Assembly (NCBI RefSeq): GCF_900104925.1
Contig: NZ_LT629735.1
Coordinates: 3,269,001-3,333,000 of the forward strand
DNA: 64,000 bases
Direction: 5' to 3'
DNA from: Opitutus sp. GAS368
Lineage (GTDB): Bacteria > Verrucomicrobiota > Verrucomicrobiia > Opitutales > Opitutaceae
Under the pieces are notes generated by a model. The model was not told the origin of the DNA and ran no database searches. It worked only from the letters and a program-made list of their open reading frames with translations. The translations under genes were made by a program, and so were the position numbers. Below are positions 13,422-46,579 of the stretch, piece after piece. Numbering within the stretch: position 1 is the stretch's first letter; each line of letters opens with the position of its first letter.

Positions 13422-13444
13422 GGGTCGTTCGGAATCCACACGAC

Positions 13445-13487: not shown

Positions 13488-13551
13488 GCCGGTTTCGGAT
13501 TAATTACCCCAGCGCGGCCTGGTCCGCGGGGCGGATTCCGCCGGCCGGGAA

Positions 13552-13562
13552 GGGACAGTCCC
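13552..13562. repeat. Short hairpin GGGACAGTCCC in the divergent intergenic region
   Basis: A perfect palindrome with 5-base arms and a 1-base loop lies between the divergent NRPS operon and glycosyltransferase gene. It could be an operator or a copy of a dispersed REP-like unit. No second copy was noticed in this window. Confidence 0.3.
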
Positions 13563-13615
13563 CATTTTCCGCTGGGGCGTTGTCGCCTACCGTGGTGCGT
13601 TGCGACCGGGTGCGG

Positions 13616-14824
13616 ATGAACCGCGCCCCGTCTTTCCCGCCCATGATTTTTCCCGCTCCGACCTTTCACCGCCAAACCGCCGCGCAGCGCCGGCGATTCC
13701 GTCCCGCGGCACCCGCCCCGGCGCGCTGGCCGGTCGCCATCCTCGGGGTGCCGTTCGATTCCGTGACCATCGACAGCGCGATCGCGCGGATCGCGGACAT
13801 GATCGCGTCGCGCCGGCCGGCCTACGTGGTGACGCCCAACGTGGATTTCCTGGTGCAGGCGCGGCGCGACGCCGAGCTGCGCCGCATCCTGTTGGAGGCG
13901 CACCTGGTCCTGTGCGACGGCCAGCCGCTGGTCTGGGCCTCGCGCTGGCTGGGCAATCCGCTGCCGGAGCGCGTGGCCGGCGCCGACCTGGTGCCGCGCT
14001 TCATCGCCCTCGCGGCGCAGCGCGGCTTCCGGCTGTTCCTGCTCGGCGCGACGCCGGAGGCGAACAGCCGGGCGGTCGCGCGTCTGCAGGAGCGGCACCC
14101 GGGACTCGTGGTCGCGGGGCATTATTCCCCGCCGTTCCGGTCGCTCGAGGAGATGGACAACGCGGAGATTGTGCGGCGCATCCAGGCGGCCCGGCCCGAC
14201 GTGGTGCTGGTGTCCTTCGGCTGCCCGAAGCAGGAGAAGTGGATCGCCCGGAACTACGGGTCACTCGGCGTGCCGGTCTGCATCGGCGTCGGGGCGACGA
14301 TCGACTTTCTGGCGGGACAGGTGCGGCGCGCCCCGCGCTGGATGCAGCGGTCGGGGCTCGAATGGATTTACCGACTCGCCCAGGAGCCGCGGCGGCTGTT
14401 CCGCCGCTATGCCGTGGACCTGCGGATTTTCAGCGAGGCGATTTTCGCGCAGTGGTGGCGCATGCACCGCTGGGGAAAACCGGGGGCGTCCGCCGTCTCG
14501 GACGCCATCACCTGGTCCGGGCCGCGCTGGCAGGTCGCGCGGGTCACGGGACATCTCGACCGCCCGGCGATCGAACGCGCCGCCGACGCCTGGCGGGAAA
14601 TCGGCGACCGGCAGCATGACTGCCTGCTGGATCTCGCCGAGGTGGATTTCATCGACAGCACCGGCGCCGCCCTGCTGGTGGCACGGCAAAAGCAGCAACA
14701 CCAGGCCGGCCGCCGGCTGGTGCTGTTCCGGCCGAGCGAGCCGGTGCGGCGTTCGCTCGGCCGGATGAACCTGCTGTCATTCCTCGAGCTGGCGGAAAGC
14801 ACGCCGGTGCGAGACGCCGCATGA
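13616..14824 (+). CDS. WecG/TagA/CpsF glycosyltransferase fused to a C-terminal STAS domain
   Basis: The protein is 402 residues from ATG 13616 (13643 is an alternative). The first two-thirds match the WecG/TagA/CpsF family, which transfers N-acetylmannosamine-type sugars to undecaprenyl-linked acceptors: YVVTPNVDFLV, LVLCDGQPLVWASRWLG, RVAGADLVPR, VLVSFGCPKQEKW and GVGATIDFLAG are visible. The last 100 or so residues form a STAS (anti-sigma-factor-antagonist-like) domain with CLLDLAEVDFIDSTGAALLV, including a Ser in the position phosphorylated in SpoIIAA-type proteins. The gene overlaps the next glycosyltransferase by four bases (ATGA). A role in exopolysaccharide or surface glycan assembly is likely. 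The fused STAS domain may make the transferase responsive to a kinase/phosphatase switch; that is inference. An in-frame extension back to 13415 has no family similarity and crosses the divergent promoter, so it was rejected. Confidence 0.88.
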   Translation: MNRAPSFPPMIFPAPTFHRQTAAQRRRFRPAAPAPARWPVAILGVPFDSVTIDSAIARIADMIASRRPAYVVTPNVDFLVQARRDAELRRILLEAHLVLCDGQPLVWASRWLGNPLPERVAGADLVPRFIALAAQRGFRLFLLGATPEANSRAVARLQERHPGLVVAGHYSPPFRSLEEMDNAEIVRRIQAARPDVVLVSFGCPKQEKWIARNYGSLGVPVCIGVGATIDFLAGQVRRAPRWMQRSGLEWIYRLAQEPRRLFRRYAVDLRIFSEAIFAQWWRMHRWGKPGASAVSDAITWSGPRWQVARVTGHLDRPAIERAADAWREIGDRQHDCLLDLAEVDFIDSTGAALLVARQKQQHQAGRRLVLFRPSEPVRRSLGRMNLLSFLELAESTPVRDAA

Positions 14825-19827: not shown

Positions 19828-21105
19828 ATGAATCCCCTGACTTTTCCGCTCCGGCTGGCGCTGACCGCCCTGGCCTTGGCTGCCGCCCTGGCCGCGCGCG
19901 CCGACCTTGTCACCGATTGGAACGCGCGGGCGCTCGGCGCCATCCGGGCCGGCCGCACGCCGCCGCCGATGGCCGCGCGCAACCTGGCCATCCTCCACGT
20001 GGCGATCTTCGACGCCTGCAACGGCATCGGCCAGAACTGCGAACCGTATTATGTGACGACGAAGCCCGCCGGCGTCGCCTCGAAGGAGGCGGCCATCACC
20101 ACCGCGGCGCGGCGCGTCCTCGTCAATCTCTTCCCCGCGCAACAGGCGGCCTTCGAGGCGGCCGCGGCGGCGGAGCTGTCCGCGCTCGCCGACGGCCCGG
20201 CGAAGAACACCGGCACCGCCTGGGGCGAGACGGTGGCCGCTGCCATTCTGCAATGGCGGGCCAACGACGGCGCGAATCTGACCGTGGCCGGTCCGCCGAT
20301 CACGGGTGCCCCGGGCAGCTGGGTGCCGACGCCGCCGGCGTTCGCCCCGGCGCTGCTGCCCAACTGGCCGCAGGTCCTGCCCTTCGCGATGACGGGCCCG
20401 GCGCAGTTCCGTCCGATGCCGCCGCCGGCGCTCGCCACGGCGCAGTGGGTCGCGGATTTCAACCGCACCAAGGACTACGGCCGCAGCGACAGCACCATCC
20501 GCACTGCCGACCAGACGGCCATCGCGCGCTTCTGGGCCGACGGCGGCGGCACCGCCACGCCGCCCGGCCACTGGAACATCATCGCCCGGGACGTCGCCCT
20601 CCAGCACGGCAACACGCTCGATGAAAACGCCCGGCTGTTCGCCCTGCTGAACATCGCGGAGGCCGACGCCGGCATCGTCGCTTGGGATTGCAAATACGCC
20701 TACGATTCCTGGCGCCCCATCACGGCGATCTGGAATGCGGACCAGGACGGCAACCCGGATACGATGCCGGATGCAAGCTGGACGCCGCTGCTGGTCACCC
20801 CGCCGTTCCCGGAATACATTTCGGGCCACAGCACGTTCAGCGGCGCGGCCGCGGCCGTGCTGGCGGCTTTCTATGGCTCCGACGACATCGCCTTCACCAC
20901 CGCGGCCGAGGATCCCCCGGGGCAGACCCGGTCGTTCGCCTCGTTCTCGCAGGCGGCGATGGAGGCCGGCATGAGCCGCATCTACGGCGGCATCCATTTC
21001 ATGTCGGCCAACCTGAGCGGCCTCGCCTGCGGTGCCGCGACCGGGGGCTATGTCATGGACAACTTCCTCCGGCCCCGGCCGGGCGAATCGCACCGCGGGC
21101 ATTGA
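19828..21105 (+). CDS. Secreted vanadium-dependent haloperoxidase / PAP2-like enzyme
   Basis: The protein is 425 residues with a clear signal peptide (about 1-24, ending near ARA). The C-terminal half carries the vanadate/phosphate-binding pattern of the haloperoxidase/acid phosphatase superfamily in order: KYAYDSWRP (K-x6-RP), ISGHST (SGH) and SRIYGGIHF (SR-x5-H). It would act in the periplasm or outside the cell, either oxidising halides with peroxide or hydrolysing phosphate esters; the motif set alone does not separate the two. The gene lies between the choice-of-anchor P gene and an S8 peptidase gene 14 bases downstream, probably in one transcript. The upstream in-frame extension to 19726 lacks a signal peptide at its start and was rejected. 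Confidence 0.82.
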   Translation: MNPLTFPLRLALTALALAAALAARADLVTDWNARALGAIRAGRTPPPMAARNLAILHVAIFDACNGIGQNCEPYYVTTKPAGVASKEAAITTAARRVLVNLFPAQQAAFEAAAAAELSALADGPAKNTGTAWGETVAAAILQWRANDGANLTVAGPPITGAPGSWVPTPPAFAPALLPNWPQVLPFAMTGPAQFRPMPPPALATAQWVADFNRTKDYGRSDSTIRTADQTAIARFWADGGGTATPPGHWNIIARDVALQHGNTLDENARLFALLNIAEADAGIVAWDCKYAYDSWRPITAIWNADQDGNPDTMPDASWTPLLVTPPFPEYISGHSTFSGAAAAVLAAFYGSDDIAFTTAAEDPPGQTRSFASFSQAAMEAGMSRIYGGIHFMSANLSGLACGAATGGYVMDNFLRPRPGESHRGH

Positions 21106-21119
21106 AGCTTCACCCGGCC

Positions 21120-22805
21120 ATGAATACGCCCCGCTTGCTTTTTCTGCGTCACGCCGGCCACGCCCGCCAGTTCGCGGCGCATCTCGGCGCCGGCCTCATC
21201 GCCCTCGTGCTCGTGCTCGGCGCCGCGCCGGCCCGAGGGCAGGGCGGCGGCAACCCGGCCGCGGCCGCCTCCTACTGCGGCGACCGGCTGCTGGTGAAGC
21301 CGGCGGTCGGGGCGGATCTCGCGCTCCTGCACGGACGGCTTGGGGCCGCGAAGCTGCGCGAGTTTCCGGAGATCGGCGGACTGCAGGTCGTGCAATTGCC
21401 GGCCCGCGCCGACGTCCCGGAGCTGGTTGCCGCCTACCAACGGAGCGGGCTGGTGGAATACGCCGAGCCCGACTTCATCGTCCACGCCCTCCTCACGCCG
21501 AACGATTTCCGCTACTGGGACGGCTCGCTCTGGAATCTGCACAACACCGGCATCTACGGCGGCACGCCGGGGGCCGACATCCATGCGCCGCAAGGCTGGG
21601 ATGTGCAGCACACCGCGCCGAACATCATCGTCGCCGATGTCGACACCGGCGTGCGCCTGACGCATGAGGACATTGCGCCCAACCTCTGGACCAACCCCGC
21701 GCCGACCATCGGCGATGTCCACGGCATCAACGCCATTACCGGCACCGGCGATCCCAGCGACGATTACGGCCACGGCACGCATGTCGCCGGCATCTTCGGG
21801 GCGGTGGGCAACAACGCCGTCGGCGTCGTCGGCGTGGCCTGGCAGGTGCAGATCATGGCGTGCAAGTTCATCGACGCCACGGGCAACGGTTCGATTTCCG
21901 ACGCCATCACGTGCCTCGATTACGCGCGCGCCCACGGGGCGAAGATCGTCAACGCCAGCTGGGGCGGCTACGGGTTCGCCTCGGCGGCCCTGTTTGACGC
22001 GATCGACAGCCTGCGCCACGCCGGAATCCTCCTGGTCGCGGCGTGCGGCAACGACAACAACGACAACGACACCAACCCGCTCTATCCCGCCAGCTACGCG
22101 CTCGACAACATCATCGCCGTGGCCGCCACGGACCGCACCGACAACCGGGCGTGGTTCTCCAACTACGGCGCGCGCACGGTGCAGCTCGGCGCACCCGGCT
22201 CGCCGGTCTTCTCCTGCTGGAACGGCTCCGATTCAGACTACCGCTACGACGACGGCACCTCGATGGCCGCGCCGCACGTGAGCGGCGCGTGCGCCCTCGT
22301 CTGGGCGCATTTCCCGGCCGAGACGTATCTCTCGATCCGCAACCGCGTGCTCGCCAACACCGATCCGCTGCCGTCGCTCGCGGGCAGGACCGTGAGCGGC
22401 GGCCGGCTCGATCTCTACCAGGCGCTGACGCATGCGCCGCCGGCCGTCAACCTGCCCACGGTCACCGTGACCGCTCCCGTGGCCGCCGCGTCGGAAAGCG
22501 GGCCGACGCCCGGGGTCTTCCGGATCTCGCGCTCTGGTGGCACGGCGAACCCGCTCACGGTTTATTACATGCTCACCGGCACCGCGCAGAACGGCGTCGA
22601 TTACCGGACACTCCCCGGCGCGGTCACGATTCCGAAAGGCTACGGTTCGGCGACCGTGACGGTGATGCCGGTCGACGCCCAGCCCAACGACGGCGCAAAG
22701 ACCGTCATCCTCACCCTCGCCGCCAACGCCGCCTACACCGTCGGCCGGGCCGACCGCGCCACCGTGACCATCGCGGACAACACCACCGCGCCGTCCCTGC
22801 CGTGA
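21120..22805 (+). CDS. Secreted subtilisin-like S8 peptidase with Calx-beta domain (paralogue 1)
   Basis: The protein is 561 residues. A signal peptide (about 1-40) leads into a fervidolysin-like N-terminal pro-region (RLLVKPAVGADL...YAEPDFIVHAL). The S8 domain follows, with catalytic Asp175 (DVDTG), His218 (HGTHVAG) and Ser381 (GTSMAAPH). A Calx-beta repeat ends the protein (about 450-558; FRISRSGG, GVDYRTLPGAVTIP). It is probably secreted and self-processing. Three paralogues lie at 28930, 30638 and 34432. A segment of about 330 bases (21640-21968) is almost identical to the paralogue at 30638 while flanking sequence diverges, suggesting gene conversion. The start 21120 gives a signal peptide; the longer in-frame extension to 20682 overlaps the haloperoxidase gene and was rejected. 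Confidence 0.88.
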   Translation: MNTPRLLFLRHAGHARQFAAHLGAGLIALVLVLGAAPARGQGGGNPAAAASYCGDRLLVKPAVGADLALLHGRLGAAKLREFPEIGGLQVVQLPARADVPELVAAYQRSGLVEYAEPDFIVHALLTPNDFRYWDGSLWNLHNTGIYGGTPGADIHAPQGWDVQHTAPNIIVADVDTGVRLTHEDIAPNLWTNPAPTIGDVHGINAITGTGDPSDDYGHGTHVAGIFGAVGNNAVGVVGVAWQVQIMACKFIDATGNGSISDAITCLDYARAHGAKIVNASWGGYGFASAALFDAIDSLRHAGILLVAACGNDNNDNDTNPLYPASYALDNIIAVAATDRTDNRAWFSNYGARTVQLGAPGSPVFSCWNGSDSDYRYDDGTSMAAPHVSGACALVWAHFPAETYLSIRNRVLANTDPLPSLAGRTVSGGRLDLYQALTHAPPAVNLPTVTVTAPVAAASESGPTPGVFRISRSGGTANPLTVYYMLTGTAQNGVDYRTLPGAVTIPKGYGSATVTVMPVDAQPNDGAKTVILTLAANAAYTVGRADRATVTIADNTTAPSLP

Positions 22806-28710: not shown

Positions 28711-28895
28711 TGACTCCTCGCCATGACCCTTTGCCGATGTTCCCTGGCCAGAGGGGACCCTCCGGTTTGGCGGGTGGCAGGACCCGGCCGGGTGCCGGCG
28801 GCTTGCCCCGCGGGTGTTGAGCGGCCCACCCGACGCCGGGGTCTCGAGCCCCCGCCGGAGCAGGCCTTCACCCCCCGGCGGCCCGGGCGGGAAAG

Positions 28896-28904
28896 TGCTA
28901 TAAA
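28896..28904 (+). promoter_or_regulatory. Putative extended -10 element TGCTATAAA
   Basis: It lies 26 bases before the start of the S8 peptidase gene at 28930. The same nine bases occur upstream of the S8 gene at 30638. No good -35 is seen. Confidence 0.4.
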
Positions 28905-28929
28905 TGGAGCCAACAAAACAACTGTCCCC

Positions 28930-30393
28930 ATGAACTTTCCGGCCATCCTCCTCCTGCGCCGCGCGGATCCCAACACCCCGCTCGCGGCGCATCTTGCCGC
29001 GGGGCTGCTCGCCCTGCTGCTGCTGCTCGCCCCGCCGGCCCGCGGTCAGGTCAGCCTTGATCCCGGAGCCCCCGCCGCTTTCCAGCCCGACCGCATCCTC
29101 GTCAAGCCCGCGGCCGGGGCCGATCTGTCCGGCCTGCACGCCTCGCTGGGCACCACGGTGCTGCGCGAGTTTCCCGGCATCGGCGGCCTGCAGGTGGTGC
29201 AGGTGCCGGCCGGGGCCGGCGTCCCCGCCCTGATTGCCGCCTACCAACTCAGCGCGCTGGTGCAATACGCCGAGCCCGACTTCATCGTGCATGCGCTGGA
29301 TACCACGCCGAACGATTTCCGGTATTGGGACGGCTCGCTCTGGGGTCTGCACAACACCGGCATCTACGGCGGCACGCCCGGCGCCGACATCAGGGCGCCC
29401 CAAGGCTGGGACGTGCAGAACTCGGCGGCCAACATCATCGTCGCGGTCACCGACACCGGTGCCTGGCTGAGTCACGAGGACCTGGCCGCCAACCTCTGGA
29501 CCAATCCCGGTGAGAGCGGCAAGGACGCCCTCGGCCTCGACAAAAGCACGAATGGCATCGACGACGACCACGACGGCTACATCGACGACGTGCACGGCAT
29601 CAACGCCATCCTCGGCACCGGGCTGCCGCTCGACGACTACGGCCATGGCTCGCACGTGAGCGGCACGATCGGCGGGGTGGGGAACAACTCGGTGGGGATC
29701 ACGGGCGTGGCCTGGCGCGTCCAGCTGATGGAATGCAAGTTCATCGACGCGCAGGGCAACGGCAGCATTTCCAACGCCATCACCTGCCTCGACTACGCGC
29801 GCCAGAAGGGCGCGAAGATCGTCAACGCCAGCTGGGGCGGCTACAACTTCAACTCGTCCGCGCTCTACGACGCCATCAACAGCCTGCGGTCGGCCGGCAT
29901 CCTGTTCGTCGCCGCCTGCGGCAACGACAACAACGACAACGACGCCCGGCCGCTTTACCCGGCGAGCTTCAATCTCGACAACATCATCGCGGTCGCCGCG
30001 ACCAACCGCACCGACGCCAAGGCGTGGTTCTCCAACTACGGCGCACACACCGTGCACCTCGGCGCGCCCGGCGAGGACATCTTCTCCTGCTGGAACGGCA
30101 GCGACAGCGCCTACCAATACGACAACGGCACCTCCATGGCGGCGCCGCACGTGGCCGGGGCCTGCGCGCTCATCTGGGCGCACAATCCGGGGGCCACCTA
30201 CCAGCAGGTCAGGAACAGCATCCTCAGCAGCACCGACCCGTTGCCCACCCTGGCGAGCCACACCGTGACCGGGGGCCGGCTCGATCTCTACAAGGCCCTC
30301 ATGGTTTCGATTCCGTCCGGCACCACCACCGGCACGCCGTCCCCCGCGCCATCGCCGGTTCCGTCCCCCGTGCCCGTGCCGGTGCCTTTGTGA
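28930..30393 (+). CDS. Secreted subtilisin-like S8 peptidase (paralogue 2)
   Basis: The protein is 487 residues. A signal peptide (about 1-37, ending near ARG) precedes the fervidolysin-like pro-region (DRILVKPAAGADL...YAEPDFIVHAL). The S8 domain has Asp175 (TDTG), His239 (HGSHVSG) and Ser402 (GTSMAAPH). It has an extra loop near residues 195-215 rich in Asp (GIDDDHDGYIDDVHG), a likely Ca-binding insertion absent from paralogues 1, 3 and 4. The C-terminus is a short Pro-Ser-Val tail with no further domain. About 62 bases around the catalytic Ser (from 30061) are identical to paralogue 4 at 35536. Confidence 0.88.
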   Translation: MNFPAILLLRRADPNTPLAAHLAAGLLALLLLLAPPARGQVSLDPGAPAAFQPDRILVKPAAGADLSGLHASLGTTVLREFPGIGGLQVVQVPAGAGVPALIAAYQLSALVQYAEPDFIVHALDTTPNDFRYWDGSLWGLHNTGIYGGTPGADIRAPQGWDVQNSAANIIVAVTDTGAWLSHEDLAANLWTNPGESGKDALGLDKSTNGIDDDHDGYIDDVHGINAILGTGLPLDDYGHGSHVSGTIGGVGNNSVGITGVAWRVQLMECKFIDAQGNGSISNAITCLDYARQKGAKIVNASWGGYNFNSSALYDAINSLRSAGILFVAACGNDNNDNDARPLYPASFNLDNIIAVAATNRTDAKAWFSNYGAHTVHLGAPGEDIFSCWNGSDSAYQYDNGTSMAAPHVAGACALIWAHNPGATYQQVRNSILSSTDPLPTLASHTVTGGRLDLYKALMVSIPSGTTTGTPSPAPSPVPSPVPVPVPL

Positions 30394-30558
30394 GAAATCC
30401 CCGGGGACGGGTTTCCGGCGGCTGCCGGGCGGCGGGCCCGGCAATGTTGGTGCTGCGATCGTGATCCCTTCAGCCGGCGCCCCGCCGCCGGCGGGAATGT
30501 AGGGTATCGAACCCGGGAATTTGCAGGCATTGACCCACCCGAACCGGGTGGGCGGTTC

Positions 30559-30567
30559 TGCTATAAA
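30559..30567 (+). promoter_or_regulatory. Putative extended -10 element TGCTATAAA
   Basis: It lies 71 bases before the S8 gene at 30638, just after a hairpin (CCCACCC/GGGTGGG, 30535-30553). It matches the element at 28896. Confidence 0.4.
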
Positions 30568-30637
30568 CAGCGGCCCCCGGGTCGCGCGCGGTGTGCGTTC
30601 CAGGTGGCAAGCACACTCAAACCAAAGGGACAGAGCC

Positions 30638-32479
30638 ATGAAAGTCACCCTACGCGCGATCGCCACCGGCATGGGACGGATCGCTGATGGATCCGGCATC
30701 CGCCTGGTGTTGCTGGGCCTGTTGATCATTGCCGCCGGCGGAACGGTGGCGGCCACTGATGCGACCGCCTTGCCGCCACCGGTGAAATTCCGGACCGATC
30801 GCATCCTCGTGAAGCCGAAGATGCAGACGGACCTCACCGGGCTGCACCAGTCGCTCGGCACCAAGGTGCGGCGCGCCTTCGCCAAGATCGGCGGCCTGCA
30901 GGTGGTCGACCTGCCCACGGGCGCCGATCCGGACAGCACTTTGCGCGCCCTGCGGCAGAGCGGCCTCGTCGAATATGCGGAGCCGGACTTCATCGTGCGG
31001 GCGCTGGACACGATCCCGAACGATTTCCGTTACTGGGACGGCTCGCTGTGGGGCCTGCACAACACCGGCATTTATGGGGGCACGCCGGGCTGCGACATCC
31101 ACGCCCCGCAGGCCTGGGACATCCAGGATACGGCCGCCAACGTGATCGTCGCCGACGTCGACACCGGCGTGCGCCTGACGCACGAGGACCTCGCACCCAA
31201 CCTCTGGACCAACCTCGCGCCGACCATCGGCGATGTCCACGGCATCAACGCCATCACCGGCACCGGCGATCCCAGCGACGATTACGGCCACGGCACGCAT
31301 GTCGCCGGCATCTTCGGGGCGGTGGGCAACAACGCCGTCGGCGTCGTCGGCGTGGCCTGGCAGGTGCAGATCATGGCGTGCAAGTTCATCGACGCCACGG
31401 GCAACGGTTCGATTTCCGACGCCATCACGTGCCTCGATTACGCGCGCGCTCACGGGGCGAAGATCGTCAACGCCAGCTGGGGCGGCTACAGCTTCACCTC
31501 GTCGGCGTTGCGCGATGCCATCAACAGCCTGCGCGATGCGGACATCATCCTGGTCGCGGCCTGCGGCAACGACAACAACGACAACGATGCCAACTCGCTC
31601 TTCCCCGCCAGTTACGAGTTTGACAACATCATCGCCGTGGCCGCCACGGATCGCACCGACGCGAGGGCTTCTTTTTCCAACTTCGGCAGCACCACGGTCC
31701 ACCTCGGCGCGCCGGGCTCGCCGATCTTCTCCACCTGGAACGGCTCGGACAGCGACTACCGCTACCTCGACGGCACGTCCATGGCCGCCCCGTTCGTGAC
31801 GGGCGCCTGCGCCCTGATCTGGGCGCGATATCCCACCCTGACGCACCACGAGGTGATCTCCCGGATACTTTCGACCGTCGATCCTTGCCCCGGTCTGGCC
31901 GGGGTCACCGTGACGGGCGGCCGGCTGAACCTGGCCGCGGCGCTCGCCCCACAAACGCCTCCGAGTCCGCCGCTCGAGATCACCTGGGTCGATGACGCGC
32001 TACCAGATGGCGCGCAACCGGCCACCGAGGGAGGGGATGCCTGGACCTGGACCGCCAATCCCACACCGTATTCCGGTTCCCTGGTGCACCTGTCCGCCTT
32101 GGCCGCGGGACAGCACGGGCACTCCTTCACCAAAGCCACGGCCACGCTGCCGGTCTATGACGGCGACACGCTGTTTGCCTACGTTTACCTCGATCCCACC
32201 ACCCCGCCGCGGGAGATCATGATCTCGTGGAACGATGGTTGCTGGGAGCACCGGGCCTTCTGGGGCGAGGATCTTATTCCCTATGGCGAGTATGGCACCA
32301 GCAGCCGGCAGAACATGGGCGCGTTGCCGGCTGCCGGGCAGTGGATCCGGCTGCAGGTGCCGGCCCATATGCTCGGGCTTGAGGGTGCGCAGCTGAAGGG
32401 CATGAGTTTCACGCTGGTGGACGGCCAGGCTGCGTGGGACGTCGCCGGCCGCCGGACGGGCCCGCCGATCGGACCTTGA
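30638..32479 (+). CDS. Secreted subtilisin-like S8 peptidase with C-terminal beta-sandwich domain (paralogue 3)
   Basis: The protein is 613 residues from ATG 30638, preceded by AAAGGGACAGAGCC. A signal peptide or anchor (about 20-42) leads into the pro-region (DRILVKPKMQTDL...YAEPDFIVRAL). The S8 domain has Asp175 (DVDTG), His218 (HGTHVAG) and Ser381 (GTSMAAPF). The C-terminal 170 residues form a distinct domain beginning ITWVDDALPDGAQP and including GDTLFAYVYLDP and ISWNDGCWEHRAFWG. This type recurs at the ends of secreted enzymes and may bind ligand, but I cannot name it. The catalytic-domain segment 31160-31486 is nearly identical to paralogue 1. Confidence 0.88.
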   Translation: MKVTLRAIATGMGRIADGSGIRLVLLGLLIIAAGGTVAATDATALPPPVKFRTDRILVKPKMQTDLTGLHQSLGTKVRRAFAKIGGLQVVDLPTGADPDSTLRALRQSGLVEYAEPDFIVRALDTIPNDFRYWDGSLWGLHNTGIYGGTPGCDIHAPQAWDIQDTAANVIVADVDTGVRLTHEDLAPNLWTNLAPTIGDVHGINAITGTGDPSDDYGHGTHVAGIFGAVGNNAVGVVGVAWQVQIMACKFIDATGNGSISDAITCLDYARAHGAKIVNASWGGYSFTSSALRDAINSLRDADIILVAACGNDNNDNDANSLFPASYEFDNIIAVAATDRTDARASFSNFGSTTVHLGAPGSPIFSTWNGSDSDYRYLDGTSMAAPFVTGACALIWARYPTLTHHEVISRILSTVDPCPGLAGVTVTGGRLNLAAALAPQTPPSPPLEITWVDDALPDGAQPATEGGDAWTWTANPTPYSGSLVHLSALAAGQHGHSFTKATATLPVYDGDTLFAYVYLDPTTPPREIMISWNDGCWEHRAFWGEDLIPYGEYGTSSRQNMGALPAAGQWIRLQVPAHMLGLEGAQLKGMSFTLVDGQAAWDVAGRRTGPPIGP

Positions 32480-34431: not shown

Positions 34432-37017
34432 ATGAAGACGCCATCCTCCGTCATCCGCCTTGTCCGCCGGCCGGCTGGCCGGCTCGCCCTCCTGTTTGCC
34501 CTGCCGCTCATGCTGGCTGCGGCGTCACTGTGGCCGCTAACGCCAAGCTTCCGGCTGATCAGCGACCCCGCTCCGAGCGGCCAGCTCACCACCGCCAGCG
34601 TTTCGGCCCCGGCGCGCAGTGACCGCATCCTGGTGAAACCTCTGCCGGGCGTCGACTTGACGGCGCTGAACCTGCAGCTCGGCGTCACCGTGCTGCGCAC
34701 CTTTCCCGGCATCGGCGGCCTGCAGGTGCTGCAGATCCCGGCCGGCTCGCTGGCCGCCGCCGTGATTGCCGCCTACCAGACGAGCGGCCTGGTCGAATAC
34801 GCGGAGCCCGACTACCTCGTGCACCTCCTGGTCGACCCGAACGATTTCCGCTACTGGGACGGTTCGCTCTGGGCGATGAAGAACACCGGCCAGCTCGGCG
34901 GCACGCCGGGCGCCGACATCAAGGCGCCGCAGGGCTGGGATATCCAGCATGACGCCACCAATGTCATCGTCGCGGTGGTCGACACGGGCATCCGTCTCAC
35001 GCACGAGGATCTCGCCGGGAACCTGTGGACGAACCCGAGCCCAAGCTCGATCAACGACGTGCACGGCATCAACGCCATCACGGGCACCGGCGACCCGACG
35101 GATGACAATGGCCACGGCTCGCACGTGTCTGGCACCATCGGCGCCGTCGGCAACAATTCCGTCGGCGTCGTCGGCGTGGCGTGGCGCGTGCAGCTGATGG
35201 CCCTCAAGTTCATCGATGCGCAGGGCAACGGTGCGATCTCCGACGCCGTCACCTGCATCGACTACGCGCGCAGCCACCACGCCAACATCATCAACGCCAG
35301 CTGGGGCGGAACCGGCTTCCAGTCCTCGGCGCTCCACGACTCGATCGCGGCCGCCCGGGACGCCGGGATCCTCTTCGTCGCCGCGGCGGGAAACTCGCAA
35401 AGCGACAACGATGCGACTCCGCTCTATCCCGCGAGTTACAACCAGCAATTGGATAACGTCATCGTCGTCGCCTCGACCAACCGTAACGACGGTCTCTCCT
35501 CCTTTTCGGACTACGGGGCCAGGACCGTCGACCTGGGCGCGCCCGGCGAGGACATCTTCTCCTGCTGGAACGGCAGCGACAGCGCCTACCAATACGAAAA
35601 CGGCACGTCCATGGCGGCGGCCCACGTCTCGGGCGTGGCCGCGGTGGTGCTGGCCCACAATCCGTCCGCGCACTACACCGCCGTCGCGCAGAGCATTTTC
35701 TCCGGCACCGACCCGCTGCCCAGCCTGCAGGGCAAGTGCGTCACCGGCGGCCGGCTCAACCTTTACCGGGCGCTCGGCGTGGTGACGCCGCCGCCCACCG
35801 TGCCGGCGGCGCCGAGCAATCTGAGTGCGACGGCCACGTCGTCGAGCGCGATCAATCTCACCTGGACGAACAACGCCACCAACGCGCAGGGCAACACGGT
35901 CGAGCGTTCGACGGACAATGCGACCTTCACGCAGATCGCTTCGCTGGCGGCGGGCACGACGAGTTACTCCGACACCGGGTTGACCGCGAGCACGACCTAC
36001 TACTACCGGGTGCGGGCCTTCAACAGCGCGGGCAACTCCGCCTACTCGAACACCGCCAGCGCCGCGACGCAGTCACCGCCGCCGACCATCCCGGCCGCTC
36101 CCAGCAATCTCAGTGCGACGGCGACCTCTTCGAGCGCGATCAACCTGACGTGGACGGACAACACCAACAACGAGGACGGCTTCCGCGTCGAACGCTCGAC
36201 GGACAACACGACCTTTACGCAGGTCGCGTCACTCGCGGCAAACTCCACAAGCTACTCCGATACCGGCCTGGCCGCGAGCACGACCTACTACTATCGCGTG
36301 CGGGCCTTCAATAGCGCGGGCAACTCTGGCTACTCGAACACGGCCAGTGCGACCACCCAGGCGCCGCCGCCGACCGTGCCGGCCGCGCCGAGCAACCTCA
36401 GTGCGAGCGCGACCTCATCGAGCGCGATCAATCTCACCTGGACGAACAACGCCACCAACGCGCAGGGCAACACGGTCGAGCGCTCGACGGACAATGCGAC
36501 CTTCACGCAGATCGCTTCGCTGGCGGCGGGCACGACGAGCTATTCCGACACGGGGTTGACCGCCAGCACGACCTACTACTACCGGGTGCGGGCCTTCAAC
36601 AGCGCGGGCAACTCCGCCTACTCGAACACGGCGAGCGCGACCACACAACCGCCGCCCGCACTGGCGACGGTGACCGTGATGGCCTCGGTGCCGCTGGCAA
36701 ACGAGGCGGGCACGCCGGGACAGTTCACCATCACCCGGTCGGGCGACACCACGCTGGCGCTGACCGTGTGCTTCACGGCCGGAGGGACCGCCACGCCAGG
36801 CACCGATTATCAGTCAATGGGAACCTCGGTCGTCATCCCCGCCGGTGCCTCCTCGGTGGCCGTGCCGGTCGTGCCGATCGACAACCAGGTGGTTGAGGTC
36901 GTGCCGCTGACCGTGACGCTGACCATCAACCCCAATCCAAATTACAGCGTCGGCCTGCTCGGATCGGCCACCGTCGCGATTCTGGACAGCGACCTGGTCG
37001 CGCTGCCGCATCTCTGA
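34432..37017 (+). CDS. Secreted S8 peptidase with three FN3 repeats and a Calx-beta domain (paralogue 4)
   Basis: The protein is 861 residues. An N-terminal signal/anchor (about 17-38) precedes the pro-region (DRILVKPLPGVDL...YAEPDYLVHLL). The S8 domain has Asp184 (VDTG), His228 (HGSHVSG) and Ser393 (GTSMAAAH). Three fibronectin type III repeats follow (each about 95 residues, about 453-740, with INLTWT and TTYYYRVRAFNSAGNS). A Calx-beta domain ends the chain (about 745-855). At DNA level FN3 repeats 1 (35790-36069) and 3 (36363-36650) are much more alike than either is to repeat 2, so they arose by recent duplication or conversion. FN3 and Calx-beta domains suggest an extended, Ca-stabilised stalk outside the cell. 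It is the largest of the four paralogues. Confidence 0.9.
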   Translation: MKTPSSVIRLVRRPAGRLALLFALPLMLAAASLWPLTPSFRLISDPAPSGQLTTASVSAPARSDRILVKPLPGVDLTALNLQLGVTVLRTFPGIGGLQVLQIPAGSLAAAVIAAYQTSGLVEYAEPDYLVHLLVDPNDFRYWDGSLWAMKNTGQLGGTPGADIKAPQGWDIQHDATNVIVAVVDTGIRLTHEDLAGNLWTNPSPSSINDVHGINAITGTGDPTDDNGHGSHVSGTIGAVGNNSVGVVGVAWRVQLMALKFIDAQGNGAISDAVTCIDYARSHHANIINASWGGTGFQSSALHDSIAAARDAGILFVAAAGNSQSDNDATPLYPASYNQQLDNVIVVASTNRNDGLSSFSDYGARTVDLGAPGEDIFSCWNGSDSAYQYENGTSMAAAHVSGVAAVVLAHNPSAHYTAVAQSIFSGTDPLPSLQGKCVTGGRLNLYRALGVVTPPPTVPAAPSNLSATATSSSAINLTWTNNATNAQGNTVERSTDNATFTQIASLAAGTTSYSDTGLTASTTYYYRVRAFNSAGNSAYSNTASAATQSPPPTIPAAPSNLSATATSSSAINLTWTDNTNNEDGFRVERSTDNTTFTQVASLAANSTSYSDTGLAASTTYYYRVRAFNSAGNSGYSNTASATTQAPPPTVPAAPSNLSASATSSSAINLTWTNNATNAQGNTVERSTDNATFTQIASLAAGTTSYSDTGLTASTTYYYRVRAFNSAGNSAYSNTASATTQPPPALATVTVMASVPLANEAGTPGQFTITRSGDTTLALTVCFTAGGTATPGTDYQSMGTSVVIPAGASSVAVPVVPIDNQVVEVVPLTVTLTINPNPNYSVGLLGSATVAILDSDLVALPHL

Positions 37018-40241: not shown

Positions 40242-40732
40242 GCCGGCGCAACCTGATCCTGGTCGCCGACGACGACGAAAACGACCTCCGGATGACCCTG
40301 GAGGCCCTGGCCCATCGCGGCACCGACCTGGAGGTGCGCACGGTCCACGACGGCGCGGAGGCGCTCGACTACCTTTACGGCCGCGAGGCGTTCAAGGACC
40401 GCCCGACCGGCAACCCCGGGATGCTGTTGCTCGACCTGAACATGCCGCGGATCGACGGCTGGGAGGTGCTGCGCCGGATCAAGACCGACGCCGCGCTCCG
40501 CACCATCCCCGTGATCGTGTTCACCTCCTCGTCCCGGGACCACGACGTGGACCAGTGCTATGAGCTGGGGGCCAACGCCTACGTGGTGAAGCCGATCGAT
40601 TTCCGCCAATTCACCGAGGTGGTGCGCGACATCCAGCATTTCTGGACCGAGTGCAACCGTCCGCCGGGTCCGCTTCACGCCGTGGAGACGGCCCCCGGGC
40701 CGGTCGGGGCCAGGGCGGGCAACAACGCGTGA
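40238..40732 (+). CDS. Single-domain response regulator (Rcp1-like)
   Basis: The protein is 164 residues, essentially one REC domain with Asp66 (LLLDLNMPRIDGWEVL), the DDDE acidic pocket, VFTSSS and VVKPIDF near the conserved Thr and Lys. This long-loop form is typical of Rcp1-type regulators paired with phytochrome-like or PAS-rich kinases. It has no output domain, so it probably relays phosphate or binds a partner. It overlaps the kinase before it (ATGA) and the kinase after it (GTGA). The last 30 residues are not conserved. Confidence 0.9.
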   Translation: MSRRNLILVADDDENDLRMTLEALAHRGTDLEVRTVHDGAEALDYLYGREAFKDRPTGNPGMLLLDLNMPRIDGWEVLRRIKTDAALRTIPVIVFTSSSRDHDVDQCYELGANAYVVKPIDFRQFTEVVRDIQHFWTECNRPPGPLHAVETAPGPVGARAGNNA

Positions 40733-41895
40733 GCAAGGAGACGCACATTCTGCTGCTGGAGGACGACATCTCGGATGCCGAGCTGGTGAAATATGCCCTG
40801 GGCCAGAGCGGCCTGGCCTACACCATGGAGCGCGTCGAGACCCGGGAGGAGTTCGCGCACCGGCTGACGGGCCTCGCGCCCGACCTGATCCTGTCCGACT
40901 ACCATCTCCCGTCCTTCGACGGGTTGCTGGCGCTGCAAATGGCGCGCGAAAAACTGCCCGACGTGCCCTTCATCTTCGTCACCGGCACGCTGGGCGAGGA
41001 GCGCGCGATCGAGACCCTGAAGCGCGGCGCTTCCGACTATGTGCTCAAGACCCGGCTCTCCCAGCTCGTGCCCGCCGTGCACCGCGCCCTGCGCGAGGCC
41101 GGCGAGCGCTCCGAGCGGAAACGCGCGGAGGAAAAGCTGCGCGAGTCGCACGAGCAGCTCCGCGCCCTGTCGGTCTACCTGCAGTATGTCCGCGAGGAGG
41201 AGCGCACCCGCATCGCCCGCGAGGTGCATGACGAGCTGGGGCAGGCCCTCACCAGCCTGAAGCTCGACCTCTCCTGGCTGCTCGGCCGCCAGCCCGCCGG
41301 CCAACGGCCGCTGCACGACAAGATCAAGGCCATGTCCCGGCACATCGACACGACCATCCACGCCGTGCGCCGGATCGCCACGGAGCTGCGCCCCGGCATC
41401 CTCGACGACCTCGGGCTCGTGGCCGCGCTGGAGTGGCAGGCCAACGATTTCCAGGGCCGCACCGGCATCGAATGCGACGTGGCCAGCACGCTGCGCGATG
41501 ACGAGCCGCTCGACGCCGACCTCAACACCGCATTCTTCCGCATTTTCCAGGAGACGCTCACCAACATCATGCGGCATGCCAACGCGACGAAGGTGGTCGT
41601 CCGTTCCAGCGAGGAGCAGGGGAGCGTGCTCCTCACGGTCCAGGACAACGGCCGCGGCATCACCGCCGCGGAGATCCACGACACGCGGTCCATCGGGCTC
41701 GTGGGCATGGGTGAGCGCGCCGCGCTGCTCGGCGGCGAGGTCACCTTCCAGGGCGGGCCCGGCAAGGGCACCACGGTCACCGTCAAGATTCCGCGGTCGC
41801 ATCCGCCACCGCGGAGCATTGTTTCCCATGAAAATCCTGATCGCGGACGACCACGCCGTGGTGCGCCAAGGCTTGAAGCAAATCTTGGCCGATGA
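40729..41895 (+). CDS. REC-HisKA_3 histidine kinase (NarX/DegS-like), GTG start
   Basis: The protein is 388 residues starting with GTG 40729, which overlaps the previous stop as GTGA. Its N-terminal REC domain has Asp57 (LILSDYHLPSFDG). A HisKA_3 dimerisation domain has His167 (RIAREVHDELGQAL), and an HATPase domain has IFQETLTNIMRHANA, DNGRGI and GLVGMGERAALLGG. HisKA_3 kinases normally pair with NarL/FixJ regulators; one is encoded next. The reading frame continues 68 bases into that regulator gene, an unusually long overlap; the last 23 or so residues are unconserved. Confidence 0.9.
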   Translation: MSKETHILLLEDDISDAELVKYALGQSGLAYTMERVETREEFAHRLTGLAPDLILSDYHLPSFDGLLALQMAREKLPDVPFIFVTGTLGEERAIETLKRGASDYVLKTRLSQLVPAVHRALREAGERSERKRAEEKLRESHEQLRALSVYLQYVREEERTRIAREVHDELGQALTSLKLDLSWLLGRQPAGQRPLHDKIKAMSRHIDTTIHAVRRIATELRPGILDDLGLVAALEWQANDFQGRTGIECDVASTLRDDEPLDADLNTAFFRIFQETLTNIMRHANATKVVVRSSEEQGSVLLTVQDNGRGITAAEIHDTRSIGLVGMGERAALLGGEVTFQGGPGKGTTVTVKIPRSHPPPRSIVSHENPDRGRPRRGAPRLEANLGR

Positions 41896-42457
41896 GTTCA
41901 GCCGCGCGGCGTTTGGCGAAGCCGGCACCGCGCAGGAGGCCATTGCCAAGGTCTGGGAGCAGGAGTGGGATGTCGTGGTGCTCGACATCACGATGCCCGG
42001 CCGCAGCGGCCTCGAGGTGCTCGGGGAGATCCGCAAGTCGCGCCCGCGCCTGCCGGTGCTCGTGCTCAGCATGCACCCGGAGGACCAGTTTGCCCTGCGC
42101 ATGCTCAAGAGCGGCGCCGCCGGCTACATGACCAAGGAGAGCGCGCCCGAAGCGCTGGTGGGCGCGATCAAAAAGGTGCTGGCCGGCGGCCGCTACGTGA
42201 GCCCGGCCCTCGCCGAGCAGATGGCCGCCTACCTCGGCACCGACGTGCAGAAGCCCCCGCACGAGCGGCTGTCCGACCGGGAATTCCTGGTCCTGCGCCT
42301 CATCGCCTCGGGCAAGACGGTGAGCCAGATCGCGGACCAGCTGGCGCTGAGCGTGAAGACCATCAGCACCTACCGGGCGCGCATCCTGGAGAAGATGCTC
42401 ATGCAGTCGAACGCCGAACTCACCCATTACGCCATCCAGAACCGGCTGGTGGAATAA
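41828..42457 (+). CDS. NarL/FixJ-family response regulator (LuxR-type HTH)
   Basis: The protein is 209 residues. The REC domain has Asp53 (VVVLDITMPGRSG) and the C-terminal LuxR-type helix-turn-helix (about 145-205) has LSDREFLVLRLIASGKT and LSVKTISTYRARILEKM. It binds DNA as a dimer after phosphorylation, most likely by the HisKA_3 kinase whose gene overlaps it. Regulators of this class use short inverted repeats as sites. The AGGTN4ACC palindromes at 13473, 37137, 37849 and 42497 are candidate targets, including its own operon promoter; that link is inference from co-location. Confidence 0.92.
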   Translation: MKILIADDHAVVRQGLKQILADEFSRAAFGEAGTAQEAIAKVWEQEWDVVVLDITMPGRSGLEVLGEIRKSRPRLPVLVLSMHPEDQFALRMLKSGAAGYMTKESAPEALVGAIKKVLAGGRYVSPALAEQMAAYLGTDVQKPPHERLSDREFLVLRLIASGKTVSQIADQLALSVKTISTYRARILEKMLMQSNAELTHYAIQNRLVE

Positions 42458-42571: not shown

Positions 42572-45472
42572 ATGTCAATGAATGCCAGCGTCGATCCCGA
42601 CCCAGCCCGTCCGAACTTTCCCCCGCCGCCCGCCCGATGGAACGGCCGGGCGGCCCCGCTGCCCGCGCCCGCCAAGTCCTCCGTCCAGGATTTCTGGCCG
42701 CTGATGGTGGCGGTGGCGCAGCACTGGTCCTGGCTGGCCGCCGCCGCGGTGGCCGGGTTGTTGCTCGGGGCGCAGGGCGGCCGGATGCTCTGGTCCACCG
42801 GTTACACGGCCGTCGCGCAGATCATCCGTTACGAGACCCCCGACCCGCAGCTTTTCCAGCCCCGCCAGATCGCGACCCCCACGCTCGCCAGCATGATCGA
42901 TTCGGTCGAGGTGCACGCGCGCGTGGGCGCCCAGTCCAAGCCCCCTCTCTCCGCCGGGGCGGTGGCCGCCGTGTTGCGCATCACGCCGGAACGCAACAGC
43001 GACATTCTCAACGTGGCCATCTCCGGCCAGGACCTGCCCGCGGCGGTCGCGCTGGCCAACCGCTACGCGGCGGAGGCGGTGCACTTCACCCAGCAGCTGC
43101 AGTCGCAAGAGGCGGGCGATGCCAGCCATTATCTCGAGCAGCAGCTCACCAAGGTGGAAAGCGAGATCACCGCGCTCAACGCCAAGTTCCGCACGTTGCC
43201 CCCGGCGGCGCTCAAGGCCGCGGCCCTGCCCCGCCCGACGCTGTTGCTGACCAGGCTCGACGAGGCGCGGGAGCAGCTGGCGGACCTGCTGGCCCGCTAT
43301 ACCGAGGCCCATCCGCTCGTGCAGGAGCAAAAGGCCCGCCTCGCCGCGCTGGAGCAGCAGGTCGCCCAGCTGGCCAACCGGCCGGCGGTCGCGCCCGGCG
43401 GCGGCGGCGCGCCGGACCCGACCGCCGCCTCCGGGGCGGCGATGGACGCCGCCATGGCGGGCGGGGACGTCGAGATCATGCGCGAGGTCAGCAAGGCCCT
43501 CGAGGGTCAGCGTCTGGTGCTGGCCGGCCGGCTCCGGCTCACGAAAATGCTGCAGGACAATCCGCCGGGTTATTACCGGATCTTCGCCCCGGCCACGCCC
43601 GAACATGCGGTGGTCAATCATCCCGCGGCCAAGATCGGCTTCCTTGCCGTCCTGGGCGGTCTGTTCGGCGTGGTGCTCACCGTCGGCGTGGTGCTGGGCA
43701 TCGAGCTCTTCGACCGCCGGTTGAAAACCGCGGCCGACGTGCGCCGCGTCACCCGCCTGCCTGTGCTGGCCAGCCTCGGACACCTGGGACGCATGCCGGT
43801 GGCGGCGCAGATCCAGTGGGGCTTCCGCACTTGGACGGCGCTGCAGAACCGGCTCAGCGAGTCGCCCAACCAGGGCCTCGTCTGCGGTATCACTTCCTCG
43901 AGCGCCGGCGAGGGCCGCTCGGTCTGGGTGCGCCTGCTCGCGGAGGCGGCGACGCAGTGCGGCTTCCGGGTGCTCACCATTTCCACGCGTCCGTCGCCCG
44001 ACGGCAACCTCAAGCAGGCCGAGGCCGCGCCCTCATCCCCGTCCGCGCCGCCCGCGGCCTGGCCGGCGCCGACCGCCCTGGCCGCAAATGTGCTGAGTTC
44101 CCCCGCGGAGATCGCCCAGCAGCTGGTCAATCCCGACGGCCCGCCGCATGTGCACATCCCGCTGCCGGGCTGGGTATGGAATCTCGAGCGGCGCAAGGAA
44201 TGGCTGGCCGCCCTCGGGCACTGGCGGACGCTGGACAACGTCGTCATCCTCGTCGAACTGCCGCCCGCCTCGGCTCCCGAATCGGTGCTGCTGGCGCAGA
44301 ACCTGCCCAACCTCGTCTGGCTGGTGGACGGCACCATTGCCGGGGCGCCCGAGACCTGTGCGCAGCTCGAGACCCTGCGTCATGCCCGTTGCAACGTCGT
44401 CGGGGCCGTCATCAACCGCGAGGCCACGCCCGTGTCCACCGACCGCCTTGCCCGCTGGCTGCCCAACCTGGCGGCGCTGCTGCTGGTGGCGGTCCTGGTC
44501 GCACCCACCGGGGCGCGGGCTCAGCCGGCGGCCGAGGCGCCGCCCGCACCACCGGCGGCCCCCGAGTCCCTTTCGGTGGTATCCCCGCGGCAACGGGCTG
44601 ACTGGCAGAAGCAGCTCACGCTCGGCCCGGGTGACGTGCTGCGCCTCGCCCTCTACAACGAGCCGACCCTGACCCAGCCGGCGGTCACGATCCAGCCGGA
44701 CGGGCGCATCAGCTTTCTGGAGGCGCGCGATGTGACCGTCGCCGGGCTCACCGTGGACGAGGCCCGCGCCAGGCTCGATACCGAGCTGGCCAACTACCGC
44801 CGGGCGCCGCGGACGATGGTCGCGCCGATGGAGTTGCACAGCAAAAAATATTTCATGCTCGGCAAGGTCGCGCAAAAGGGCGTGTTCACGCTCGACCGGC
44901 CGATGACCGTCGTCGAGGCGGTGGCGCGGGCCAAGGGCTTCGAGACCGGGCTGGCCGGGCGCAATGTCGTGGATCTGGCCGACCTCTCGCGCAGTTTCCT
45001 GGTCCGCGGCGGGCACCGGGCGCCGGTGAACTTCGAGCGACTCTTCACGGCGGGCGATCTGGCGCAGAACATCGCGGTCGAGCCCGGCGATTATTTCTAT
45101 TTTCCGCCGGCGGATCTGCCGGAGGTCTACCTGCTCGGCGAGTTGCAGTCGCCGGGCCCCGTCACCTACACGGCAAACCTCACGGCGGCCCGCGCCATCG
45201 CGGGGCGCGGCGGCCTCACGCCCAAGGCGTGGTGGCGGCAGGTGCTCGTGGTGCGCGGCTCGCTGGACCATCCGCAGACCTTCGTCGTCAACCTGACCGA
45301 CGTGCTCGCGGCCAAGGCGCCGGACCTGGCGCTGCAGCCGCGCGACATCGTGTTCGTGAGCGCGCGGCCGTGGTTCAAGGCCGAGGAATTGCTCGACGAC
45401 GTGGCGACCGCCTTCGCCCAGTCCGTGGTGGTCTTCTGGACCACCGACAAGGTCGTGCCCGTGGTGCGATGA
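42572..45472 (+). CDS. Polysaccharide co-polymerase (Wzc/GumC-like, degenerate kinase) fused to an OPX export domain
   Basis: The protein is 966 residues. A Wzz-type chain-length region (about 45-380) is bounded by membrane segments near 55-75 and 350-378, with a periplasmic coiled coil between. A cytoplasmic BY-kinase-like region follows (about 390-625). Its nucleotide site is degenerate: SSSAGEGRS lacks the Walker A lysine and ILVELPP lacks the usual aspartate, so it is probably inactive. A third hydrophobic segment (about 628-650, ending in a signal-peptidase-like ARA-QP site) leads to a Poly_export/SLBB region (about 680-966; LTLGPGDVLRLALYNEP, VYLLGELQSPGPV). The third segment would place the OPX part in the periplasm, so the topology is consistent. 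Alternatively the OPX part is cleaved off or made from an internal GTG near 44440. A second OPX gene follows 18 bases later. Confidence 0.87.
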   Translation: MSMNASVDPDPARPNFPPPPARWNGRAAPLPAPAKSSVQDFWPLMVAVAQHWSWLAAAAVAGLLLGAQGGRMLWSTGYTAVAQIIRYETPDPQLFQPRQIATPTLASMIDSVEVHARVGAQSKPPLSAGAVAAVLRITPERNSDILNVAISGQDLPAAVALANRYAAEAVHFTQQLQSQEAGDASHYLEQQLTKVESEITALNAKFRTLPPAALKAAALPRPTLLLTRLDEAREQLADLLARYTEAHPLVQEQKARLAALEQQVAQLANRPAVAPGGGGAPDPTAASGAAMDAAMAGGDVEIMREVSKALEGQRLVLAGRLRLTKMLQDNPPGYYRIFAPATPEHAVVNHPAAKIGFLAVLGGLFGVVLTVGVVLGIELFDRRLKTAADVRRVTRLPVLASLGHLGRMPVAAQIQWGFRTWTALQNRLSESPNQGLVCGITSSSAGEGRSVWVRLLAEAATQCGFRVLTISTRPSPDGNLKQAEAAPSSPSAPPAAWPAPTALAANVLSSPAEIAQQLVNPDGPPHVHIPLPGWVWNLERRKEWLAALGHWRTLDNVVILVELPPASAPESVLLAQNLPNLVWLVDGTIAGAPETCAQLETLRHARCNVVGAVINREATPVSTDRLARWLPNLAALLLVAVLVAPTGARAQPAAEAPPAPPAAPESLSVVSPRQRADWQKQLTLGPGDVLRLALYNEPTLTQPAVTIQPDGRISFLEARDVTVAGLTVDEARARLDTELANYRRAPRTMVAPMELHSKKYFMLGKVAQKGVFTLDRPMTVVEAVARAKGFETGLAGRNVVDLADLSRSFLVRGGHRAPVNFERLFTAGDLAQNIAVEPGDYFYFPPADLPEVYLLGELQSPGPVTYTANLTAARAIAGRGGLTPKAWWRQVLVVRGSLDHPQTFVVNLTDVLAAKAPDLALQPRDIVFVSARPWFKAEELLDDVATAFAQSVVVFWTTDKVVPVVR

Positions 45473-45490: not shown

Positions 45491-46579
45491 ATGAAAAAGT
45501 GCTTTCAACTGCCTCTCGCCAGCCTGATCGTCCTGCTGTCGGGCGGTTGTGCGGGCCTCGGCCCGTCCGGTGAACGGCCGGCGGCGCTGGCCCCCGGCAA
45601 TCCGGCCGGTGAAGCCCGGACTCCCGGCGCCGAATTGCTGCGGCCCTCCGAGAAAGTCTTCACGCTCGGGCCGGGCGACCGGCTGGAGATTGAGATCGCC
45701 GGCGATCCCGCCTCGCGCACGGCCACGCTGGTCGGCCCCGACGGCAAGATCTATTACCAGGTGCTGCCCGGCATCGATGTGTGGGGCCTGAGCCTCGCCC
45801 AGGCCCGGGAGGCGCTGGAGCATGCGCTGGCGGACCTTTACCGCGAGGTGCCGCGGGTGACGATCACGTTGCGTGAGGTGGGCAGCAAGCAGGTGTGGCT
45901 GCTCGGCCGGTTGACCGCACCGGGACTATACCCGTTGACGGGGCCCACCACGCTGCTGGAGGCGATTGCGCGCGCCGGCGGGCCGGCGCCCACGCCGGTG
46001 TTTGCCACGCTGACCTTGGGCGGCACGGCGACCTTCGCCGGCGGCAGCGATGAGGCGGCGGACCTGCGCAATGCCTTTGTCGTGCGTGGCGGACGGCTTT
46101 TGCCGGTGGATTTCTCCCGGCTGCTCCGCCAGGGCGACATGGCGCAGAACATCTATCTCGAGCCCGATGACCTGGTCTACCTGCCGTCGGCGGTTTCGCA
46201 GGAGGTGTATGTGCTCGGGGCGGTCAGCCAGCCCAAGGCCGTCAGCTGCACGGAGCGCACGACGCTGCTCGGGGCGATCGCCGGCGCGGGTGGGACGATC
46301 AAGGACGCCTACCTTTCACACGTCGCGGTCGTGCGCGGCGGGGTGGGGGCGCCGCAGATCACCGTGCTGGACTACCAGGACATTGTGCACGGCCGGGTGC
46401 CGGACGTGCGGCTGGAACCAAATGACATTGTCTACGTGCCGCTCGCACCCTACCGCACCATCACCCGCTACCTCGACCTGATCCTCACGACCTTCGCCCG
46501 CACCGTCGGCGTCAACGCCGGGGCCCGCGCCGTGTCGCGCGGCCAGGCCGTGGGCATCAGCGTGCCCGTCGGGCCGTGA
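45491..46579 (+). CDS. Outer-membrane polysaccharide export lipoprotein (Wza-like OPX)
   Basis: The protein is 362 residues. A lipoprotein signal peptide ends in LLSGGC (lipidated Cys20). A Poly_export domain (about 55-140; FTLGPGDRLEIEIAGDP) and two SLBB-type repeats (KQVWLLGRLTAPGLYPLTG; EVYVLGAVSQPKAVSCTE) follow. It would form or line the outer-membrane channel for polysaccharide. It lies 18 bases after the co-polymerase/OPX fusion gene, so two different OPX modules are made from one transcript. The C-terminal TM-like helix (about 320-345) is only moderately hydrophobic. Confidence 0.9.
   Translation: MKKCFQLPLASLIVLLSGGCAGLGPSGERPAALAPGNPAGEARTPGAELLRPSEKVFTLGPGDRLEIEIAGDPASRTATLVGPDGKIYYQVLPGIDVWGLSLAQAREALEHALADLYREVPRVTITLREVGSKQVWLLGRLTAPGLYPLTGPTTLLEAIARAGGPAPTPVFATLTLGGTATFAGGSDEAADLRNAFVVRGGRLLPVDFSRLLRQGDMAQNIYLEPDDLVYLPSAVSQEVYVLGAVSQPKAVSCTERTTLLGAIAGAGGTIKDAYLSHVAVVRGGVGAPQITVLDYQDIVHGRVPDVRLEPNDIVYVPLAPYRTITRYLDLILTTFARTVGVNAGARAVSRGQAVGISVPVGP

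Follow-up and report, generated by a model that had tools for sequence, protein, structure and literature searches.

The closest described relatives of the locus reported here are Wzc and Wza of Escherichia coli. Wzc is a tyrosine autokinase and a polysaccharide co-polymerase (PCP) of the PCP-2a type. It has two transmembrane segments (TM1 and TM2), a periplasmic helical domain and a C-terminal BY-kinase fold in one chain, with a Walker A lysine, aspartates in the Walker A' and B motifs and a tyrosine tail. Wza is an OPX export protein, a lipoprotein with Poly_export and SLBB domains in that order. In the Wza-Wzc system, tyrosine phosphorylation is thought to make and break the contact between the co-polymerase and the translocon. 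FbcH of Bradyrhizobium is a cytochrome b/c1 polyprotein in which two subunits of an envelope complex are joined via an internal cleavable signal peptide; its proteins and pathway are unrelated to those described here. EcpK of Myxococcus xanthus, described with EpsV, is a stand-alone protein that has a BY-kinase fold, no catalytic motifs and no tyrosine tail, and it serves a separate PCP-2 (PMC12004946). PCP-2a proteins, OPX proteins and BY pseudokinases are already known. No fusion of a PCP with an OPX protein was found in the literature searched, which lay largely outside subscription papers, so an earlier mention is possible. Two OPX surveys (PMC9603273 and PMC9601211) do not mention such a fusion in the passages searched.

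The window, that is, the whole stretch of DNA analysed, comprises 64,000 nucleotides of the genome of Opitutus sp. GAS368. It contains an open reading frame (42572-45472) that begins with ATG, has no internal stops and encodes, in order, a PCP resembling Wzc, a BY-kinase domain with degenerate catalytic motifs and an OPX part resembling Wza (OPX1). The initial annotation had proposed that a Wzc-like protein is joined here in frame to a Wza/OPX domain, and Pfam and structure matches bear this out (Table 1). Poly_export (residues 680-750, E 8e-15) and SLBB_2 (residues 852-929) were both above the Pfam cut-offs. Matches of the PCP part to named Pfam families were all below threshold; the family profile matched Wzc and PslE in the PDB with E values of 1e-12 to 1e-14. 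The AlphaFold2 model of the protein has a mean pLDDT of 72.5 and a pTM of 0.35 and can be trusted for single domains only. When compared with solved structures, residues 39-620 of the model resemble Wzc (Z 14) and residues 681-936 resemble Wza (Z 12.5). The model places an alpha/beta kinase-like domain after TM2, and its OPX part spans residues 677-935.

Like Wzc, the fusion protein has a periplasmic domain between two transmembrane segments and a C-terminal BY-kinase fold. Unlike Wzc, it lacks the Walker A lysine, the A' and B aspartates and the tyrosine tail, and its chain goes on with an OPX part behind a third hydrophobic segment. A Poly_export domain followed by SLBB, as in Wza, is found both in OPX1 and in the second OPX protein, OPX2, which is encoded next. 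OPX1 differs from Wza in that it is fused behind a PCP, is not a lipoprotein and is followed by this second, Wza-like lipoprotein.

Table 1. Features of the fusion gene and its neighbors; positions are those of the window.
Feature	Position	Strand	Evidence or remark
Receiver-HisKA_3-HATPase hybrid kinase	40651..41895	+	conserved neighbor
LuxR-type response regulator, directly upstream of fusion	41834..42457	+	conserved neighbor
pcp-pk-opx1 fusion gene, 966 aa	42572..45472	+	single open frame; fused orthologues in at least 28 sampled loci
TM1 of PCP (residues 52-73)	42725..42790	+	AlphaFold2 helix, hydrophobicity
PCP periplasmic domain, long helices 155-207 and 290-329	42791..43621	+	model, Wzc match
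TM2 of PCP (residues 351-379)	43622..43708	+	AlphaFold2 model, hydrophobicity
BY-kinase-fold pseudokinase (residues 381-619)	43712..44428	+	resembles CapAB, BceF and Wzc kinase domains, Z about 13
Degenerate Walker A, GEGRS, Lys to Arg (residue 449)	43907..43921	+	R in 27/28, C in 1/28
Degenerate Walker B, VELPP, Asp to Glu	44252..44266	+	E in 26/27
Possible internal GTG start, codon 621	44432..44434	+	GAGG at 44420-44423, 8 bases upstream; not conserved
Internal signal-peptide-like segment (residues 621-650)	44432..44521	+	n-region RLARW, hydrophobic core 633-647, c-region ARA
Predicted signal peptidase I site ARA/Q, between residues 650 and 651	44519..44524	+	motif type in 17/27 fused loci
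Low-complexity Ala/Pro linker (residues 651-676)	44522..44599	+	disordered in model; orthologue lengths vary
OPX1 Poly_export (D1) domain	44609..44821	+	PF02563, E 8e-15
OPX1 SLBB_2 domain, better-scoring of two stretches	45125..45358	+	PF22461
OPX1 C-terminal helix (residues 937-960)	45380..45451	+	AlphaFold2 model
OPX2, predicted lipoprotein, amphipathic C-terminal helix (residues 324-348)	45491..46579	+	Wza-like domains

The kinase domain has kept its fold and lost its catalytic motifs. The Walker A lysine and the Walker aspartate had been reported missing, and this was confirmed: arginine stands for the lysine and glutamate for the aspartate. The Walker A' DxD was absent among 28 homologous sequences, the strand reading VLTIATRP with no aspartate. 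Residues 560-650 of the window protein contain no tyrosine, as is true of 25 of 28 homologues (one tyrosine in each of the rest), and in place of a tyrosine-rich tail the chain runs on into the hydrophobic segment. Nevertheless, the domain is well conserved. Leaving aside the nearest orthologue, identity to the window protein is 44-59% in the pseudokinase versus 26-43% in the PCP, and the stretch VHIPLPGWVWNLERRK (residues 527-542, window 44150-44197) is nearly invariant across the family despite the loss of the catalytic motifs. Judged from these patterns, the domain appears to be a BY pseudokinase under constraint. It resembles EcpK in having a BY-kinase fold without catalytic motifs and differs from it in being placed inside the PCP chain and leading into an OPX domain. 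Activity through a non-canonical site seems very unlikely. It is true that conservation is tight in the P-loop-like GEGRS and in the VELPP strand, and that GEGK is kept in two fused relatives (L144 and L147), but the window's clade lacks the lysine, both aspartate motifs and the tyrosine tail. Walker A is also missing or degenerate in relatives whose PCP and OPX1 are separate genes. Together with the GEGK of the two fused relatives, this indicates that kinase loss is a trait of the wider family and not of the fusion.

Most of the sampled close orthologues keep the fusion, and some relatives are split. At least 28 sampled Verrucomicrobiota loci have the PCP, pseudokinase and OPX1 in a single open frame; orthologues are thus not always two genes, and the fusion is not an accident of assembly. 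Orthologues were found in Opitutaceae and in Verrucomicrobia labelled subdivision 3, Pedosphaera and Limisphaerales; a title of Acidobacteria in one record and of Methanomassiliicoccaceae in another may reflect mis-binning. The pseudokinase is present in 19 of 384 sampled genomes of the class and in 48 of 196 genomes of one order; in this order, open frames of at least 970 residues, counted by length alone, are present in about 26. A long open frame alone was not accepted in the fusion counts. L095-L099, considered as further fusions for their long OPX open frames, were rejected, as the PCP, where found (L096 and L099), lies in another frame. Two more loci were left out as evidence, L008 with an in-frame TAG near the contig start and L047 without the N-terminal part of the PCP. 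L047 carries a 610-aa open reading frame (L047:9986-11818) that starts at TM2, with no N-terminal PCP part in the 10 kb upstream, and is either a truncated natural form or an assembly fault.

PCP and OPX1 are two genes in 15 related sampled loci. The ATG of OPX1 overlaps the PCP stop (ATGA type) in 10 of these, and in two loci a single stop separates PCP and OPX1 in the same frame (L139:7773 and L143:8110). Each split OPX1 has its own short, ordinary signal peptide just after the PCP stop, mostly with an end of the signal peptidase I (SPI) type. The split PCP-pseudokinase of L137 (L137:7310-7349) ends in NFARW, the n-region of fused forms, and then a stop; it may be a fusion that was broken again.

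Against the nearest orthologue, dN/dS was 0.28 for the PCP, 0.18 for the pseudokinase, about 0.11 for the join (with dS saturated) and 0.20 for OPX1. Values below 0.3 point to purifying selection acting on every part of the fused frame. For practical purposes, these results refute the idea that the fused frame arose through a sequencing or annotation error or belongs to a gene in decay. A few homologues (L139 and L008) do have an in-frame stop, close to the join or within the pseudokinase, but the source genome is closed, as one contig of 4.15 Mb, the fused loci come from independent assemblies, and dN/dS is well below 1 throughout.

In a tree of PCP and OPX1 (43 rows) the split forms are basal, and well supported branches force at least five changes between the fused and split states. 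A single origin of the fusion, seen in a first tree of OPX1 only with fewer rows, was dropped for this reason. Such repeated switching fits a join that is of little consequence for the mature proteins, and it suggests that the proteins can do without a covalent link.

The join was expected to hold a third hydrophobic segment resembling a signal peptide, and it does. Fused joins follow one pattern: GAVLNRE as the last pseudokinase strand, a near-fixed spacing, a basic RFxRW, a hydrophobic core and a small-x-small end, after which comes a linker of variable length rich in Ala, Pro and Thr. The mean hydrophobic core is 14.4 residues at the join, 19.8 in TM1, 21.8 in TM2 and 13.0 in the signal peptides of split OPX1. 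The n-, h- and c-regions of a Sec/SPI precursor are all present; cleavage itself is predicted. The end is of the same type in fused L135, L136, L144, L146, L142 and L093, and the site motif is weak in L003 and L147. The motif [small]x[AGSC]Q is found at the join in 17 of 27 fused loci versus 6.5 expected from shuffles, a comparison in which the glutamine was put into the motif only after the alignment had been inspected and in which the relatedness of the sampled loci makes the shuffle values overstate independence. Plain AxA was not enriched over shuffled Ala-rich composition (14 of 27, with 12.9 expected).

The initial annotation had left three fates open for this protein. The one we favor, with moderate confidence, is that the gene encodes a precursor that is cut by signal peptidase I into a PCP-pseudokinase and a periplasmic OPX1 of a Wzc/Wza-type exporter. 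In split relatives an ordinary SPI-type signal peptide begins OPX1 just past the PCP stop, and in fused forms the n-, h- and c-regions persist in that position, with a short core and the small-x-[AGSC]-Q end. The repeated fused/split changes on the tree also argue for cleavage. The weight of the site motif is lessened by its post hoc glutamine, by plain AxA being no higher than composition, by the weak sites of L003 and L147 and by the relatedness of the loci.

It is improbable that translation of OPX1, signal peptide included, starts anew at GTG 44432, whether besides or instead of read-through. The GAGG stands 8 bases before this codon, which lies 13 codons ahead of the hydrophobic core. However, it is not conserved. 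ATG, GTG or TTG can be found in nearly every locus within this Val/Leu-rich stretch, but the places differ, and a start codon with a Shine-Dalgarno-like site of any kind occurs at the join in only 4 of 27 loci, at other positions. Split relatives mostly begin OPX1 at an ATG within the PCP stop, and the purifying selection on the fused frame also speaks against an internal start.

The third fate, an uncut protein, is possible but the less probable of the two main readings. The third segment would then be a signal anchor, and a protein with three transmembrane segments would covalently tether the OPX ring to the inner-membrane PCP. The Ala/Pro linker would climb outside the PCP crown, and only OPX2 would enter the outer membrane. 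The strongest argument for a tether is the long linkers of the main fused clade, with a median of 38 residues versus 18 for the mature N-termini of split OPX1 (p 4e-4, from rows that are not independent). Longer linkers are what a tether requires, and they count against cleavage. The spacing from the pseudokinase to the third segment is nearly constant, and residues 622-643 are modelled as a helix, at low confidence. On the other side, the short core resembles that of a signal peptide, and its small-x-small-Gln end is conserved. The distance that a tether would have to cover can also be considered. The periplasmic part of Wzc reaches about 60 Å above the membrane (PMC9601211), and D1 of Wza contacts the arms of Wzc (PMC12881504). 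In the fused protein of L093 (G269), only 3 residues lie between the site and D1, and 8 or fewer between the core and D1, so that this protein, if uncut, could not reach the PCP tip. In the fused clade to which the window protein belongs, core and D1 are at least 33 residues apart, and there an uncut tether can reach.

If the precursor is cut, the following sequence of events can be proposed. TM1 and TM2 would insert the PCP, and the pseudokinase would fold in the cytoplasm. The segment 621-650, probably derived from the signal peptide that a once-separate OPX gene encoded, would start a second Sec export step and carry the OPX domain into the periplasm, and signal peptidase I would then cut after residue 650. 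OPX1 would thereby be set free in the periplasm, and the PCP-pseudokinase would keep a third, short membrane segment; the two would be present in an exact 1:1 ratio. D1 of OPX1 could then sit on the PCP tip; this is consistent with Wza and Wzc, which are both octamers and in which D1 of Wza meets the Wzc arms (PMC12881504). Finally, the pseudokinase may act as a scaffold that governs assembly without tyrosine phosphorylation, for which EcpK is a precedent (PMC12004946).

The last stage of the path, through the outer membrane, would be provided by the lipoprotein OPX2. A lipoprotein OPX directly after the fusion had been noted earlier, and it is indeed there, starting 18 bases past the fusion stop and carrying a lipobox-like SGGC. 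The lipobox pattern is matched by 30 of 31 OPX2 homologues, and the OPX2 model is Wza-like. A C-terminal helix is present in both OPX proteins and is strongly amphipathic only in OPX2 (last-helix moment of 0.61 versus 0.29-0.34 for OPX1); Wza_C was not among the Pfam matches. OPX2 is nearly always the next gene after the fused gene where the contig continues, and pairs of OPX1 and OPX2 are widespread in the phylum. From this we infer a place in the outer membrane for OPX2, with OPX1 forming an intermediate ring or one that docks on the PCP.

A kinase-less family with fused partners offers a natural test of whether phosphorylation cycling is needed and of a 1:1 ring arrangement. If the join is cut, the gene encodes an unusual bacterial polyprotein whose two parts are possibly made in equal number. 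If it is not, the product would be a covalent trans-envelope conduit whose assembly, unlike that of Wza-Wzc, could not be switched by dissociation. The repeated change between one gene and two makes close relatives available for comparison.

WecG/STAS and GT4 glycosyltransferase genes lie upstream of the fusion, as do NRPS genes on the other strand. No Wzx or Wzy gene was found near the locus within the window; Wzy_C and PGT genes are present elsewhere in the genome. The WecG-type glycosyltransferase (window 13415-14824) has a C-terminal STAS domain, as does its counterpart in L050. Beside the WecG/STAS and GT4 genes are two NRPS modules on the minus strand (window 5797-10191 and 10188-13472), one of which has a luciferase-like monooxygenase inserted in its adenylation region. 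NRPS homologues occupy the same place, next to the same glycosyltransferases, in L033, L037 and L050. The polysaccharide locus is possibly linked to a peptide product. Between the glycosyltransferase genes and the regulator genes lie four genes for subtilases (window 20682-22805, 28723-30393, 30521-32479 and 34432-37017), of which some have FN3 or Calx-beta domains.
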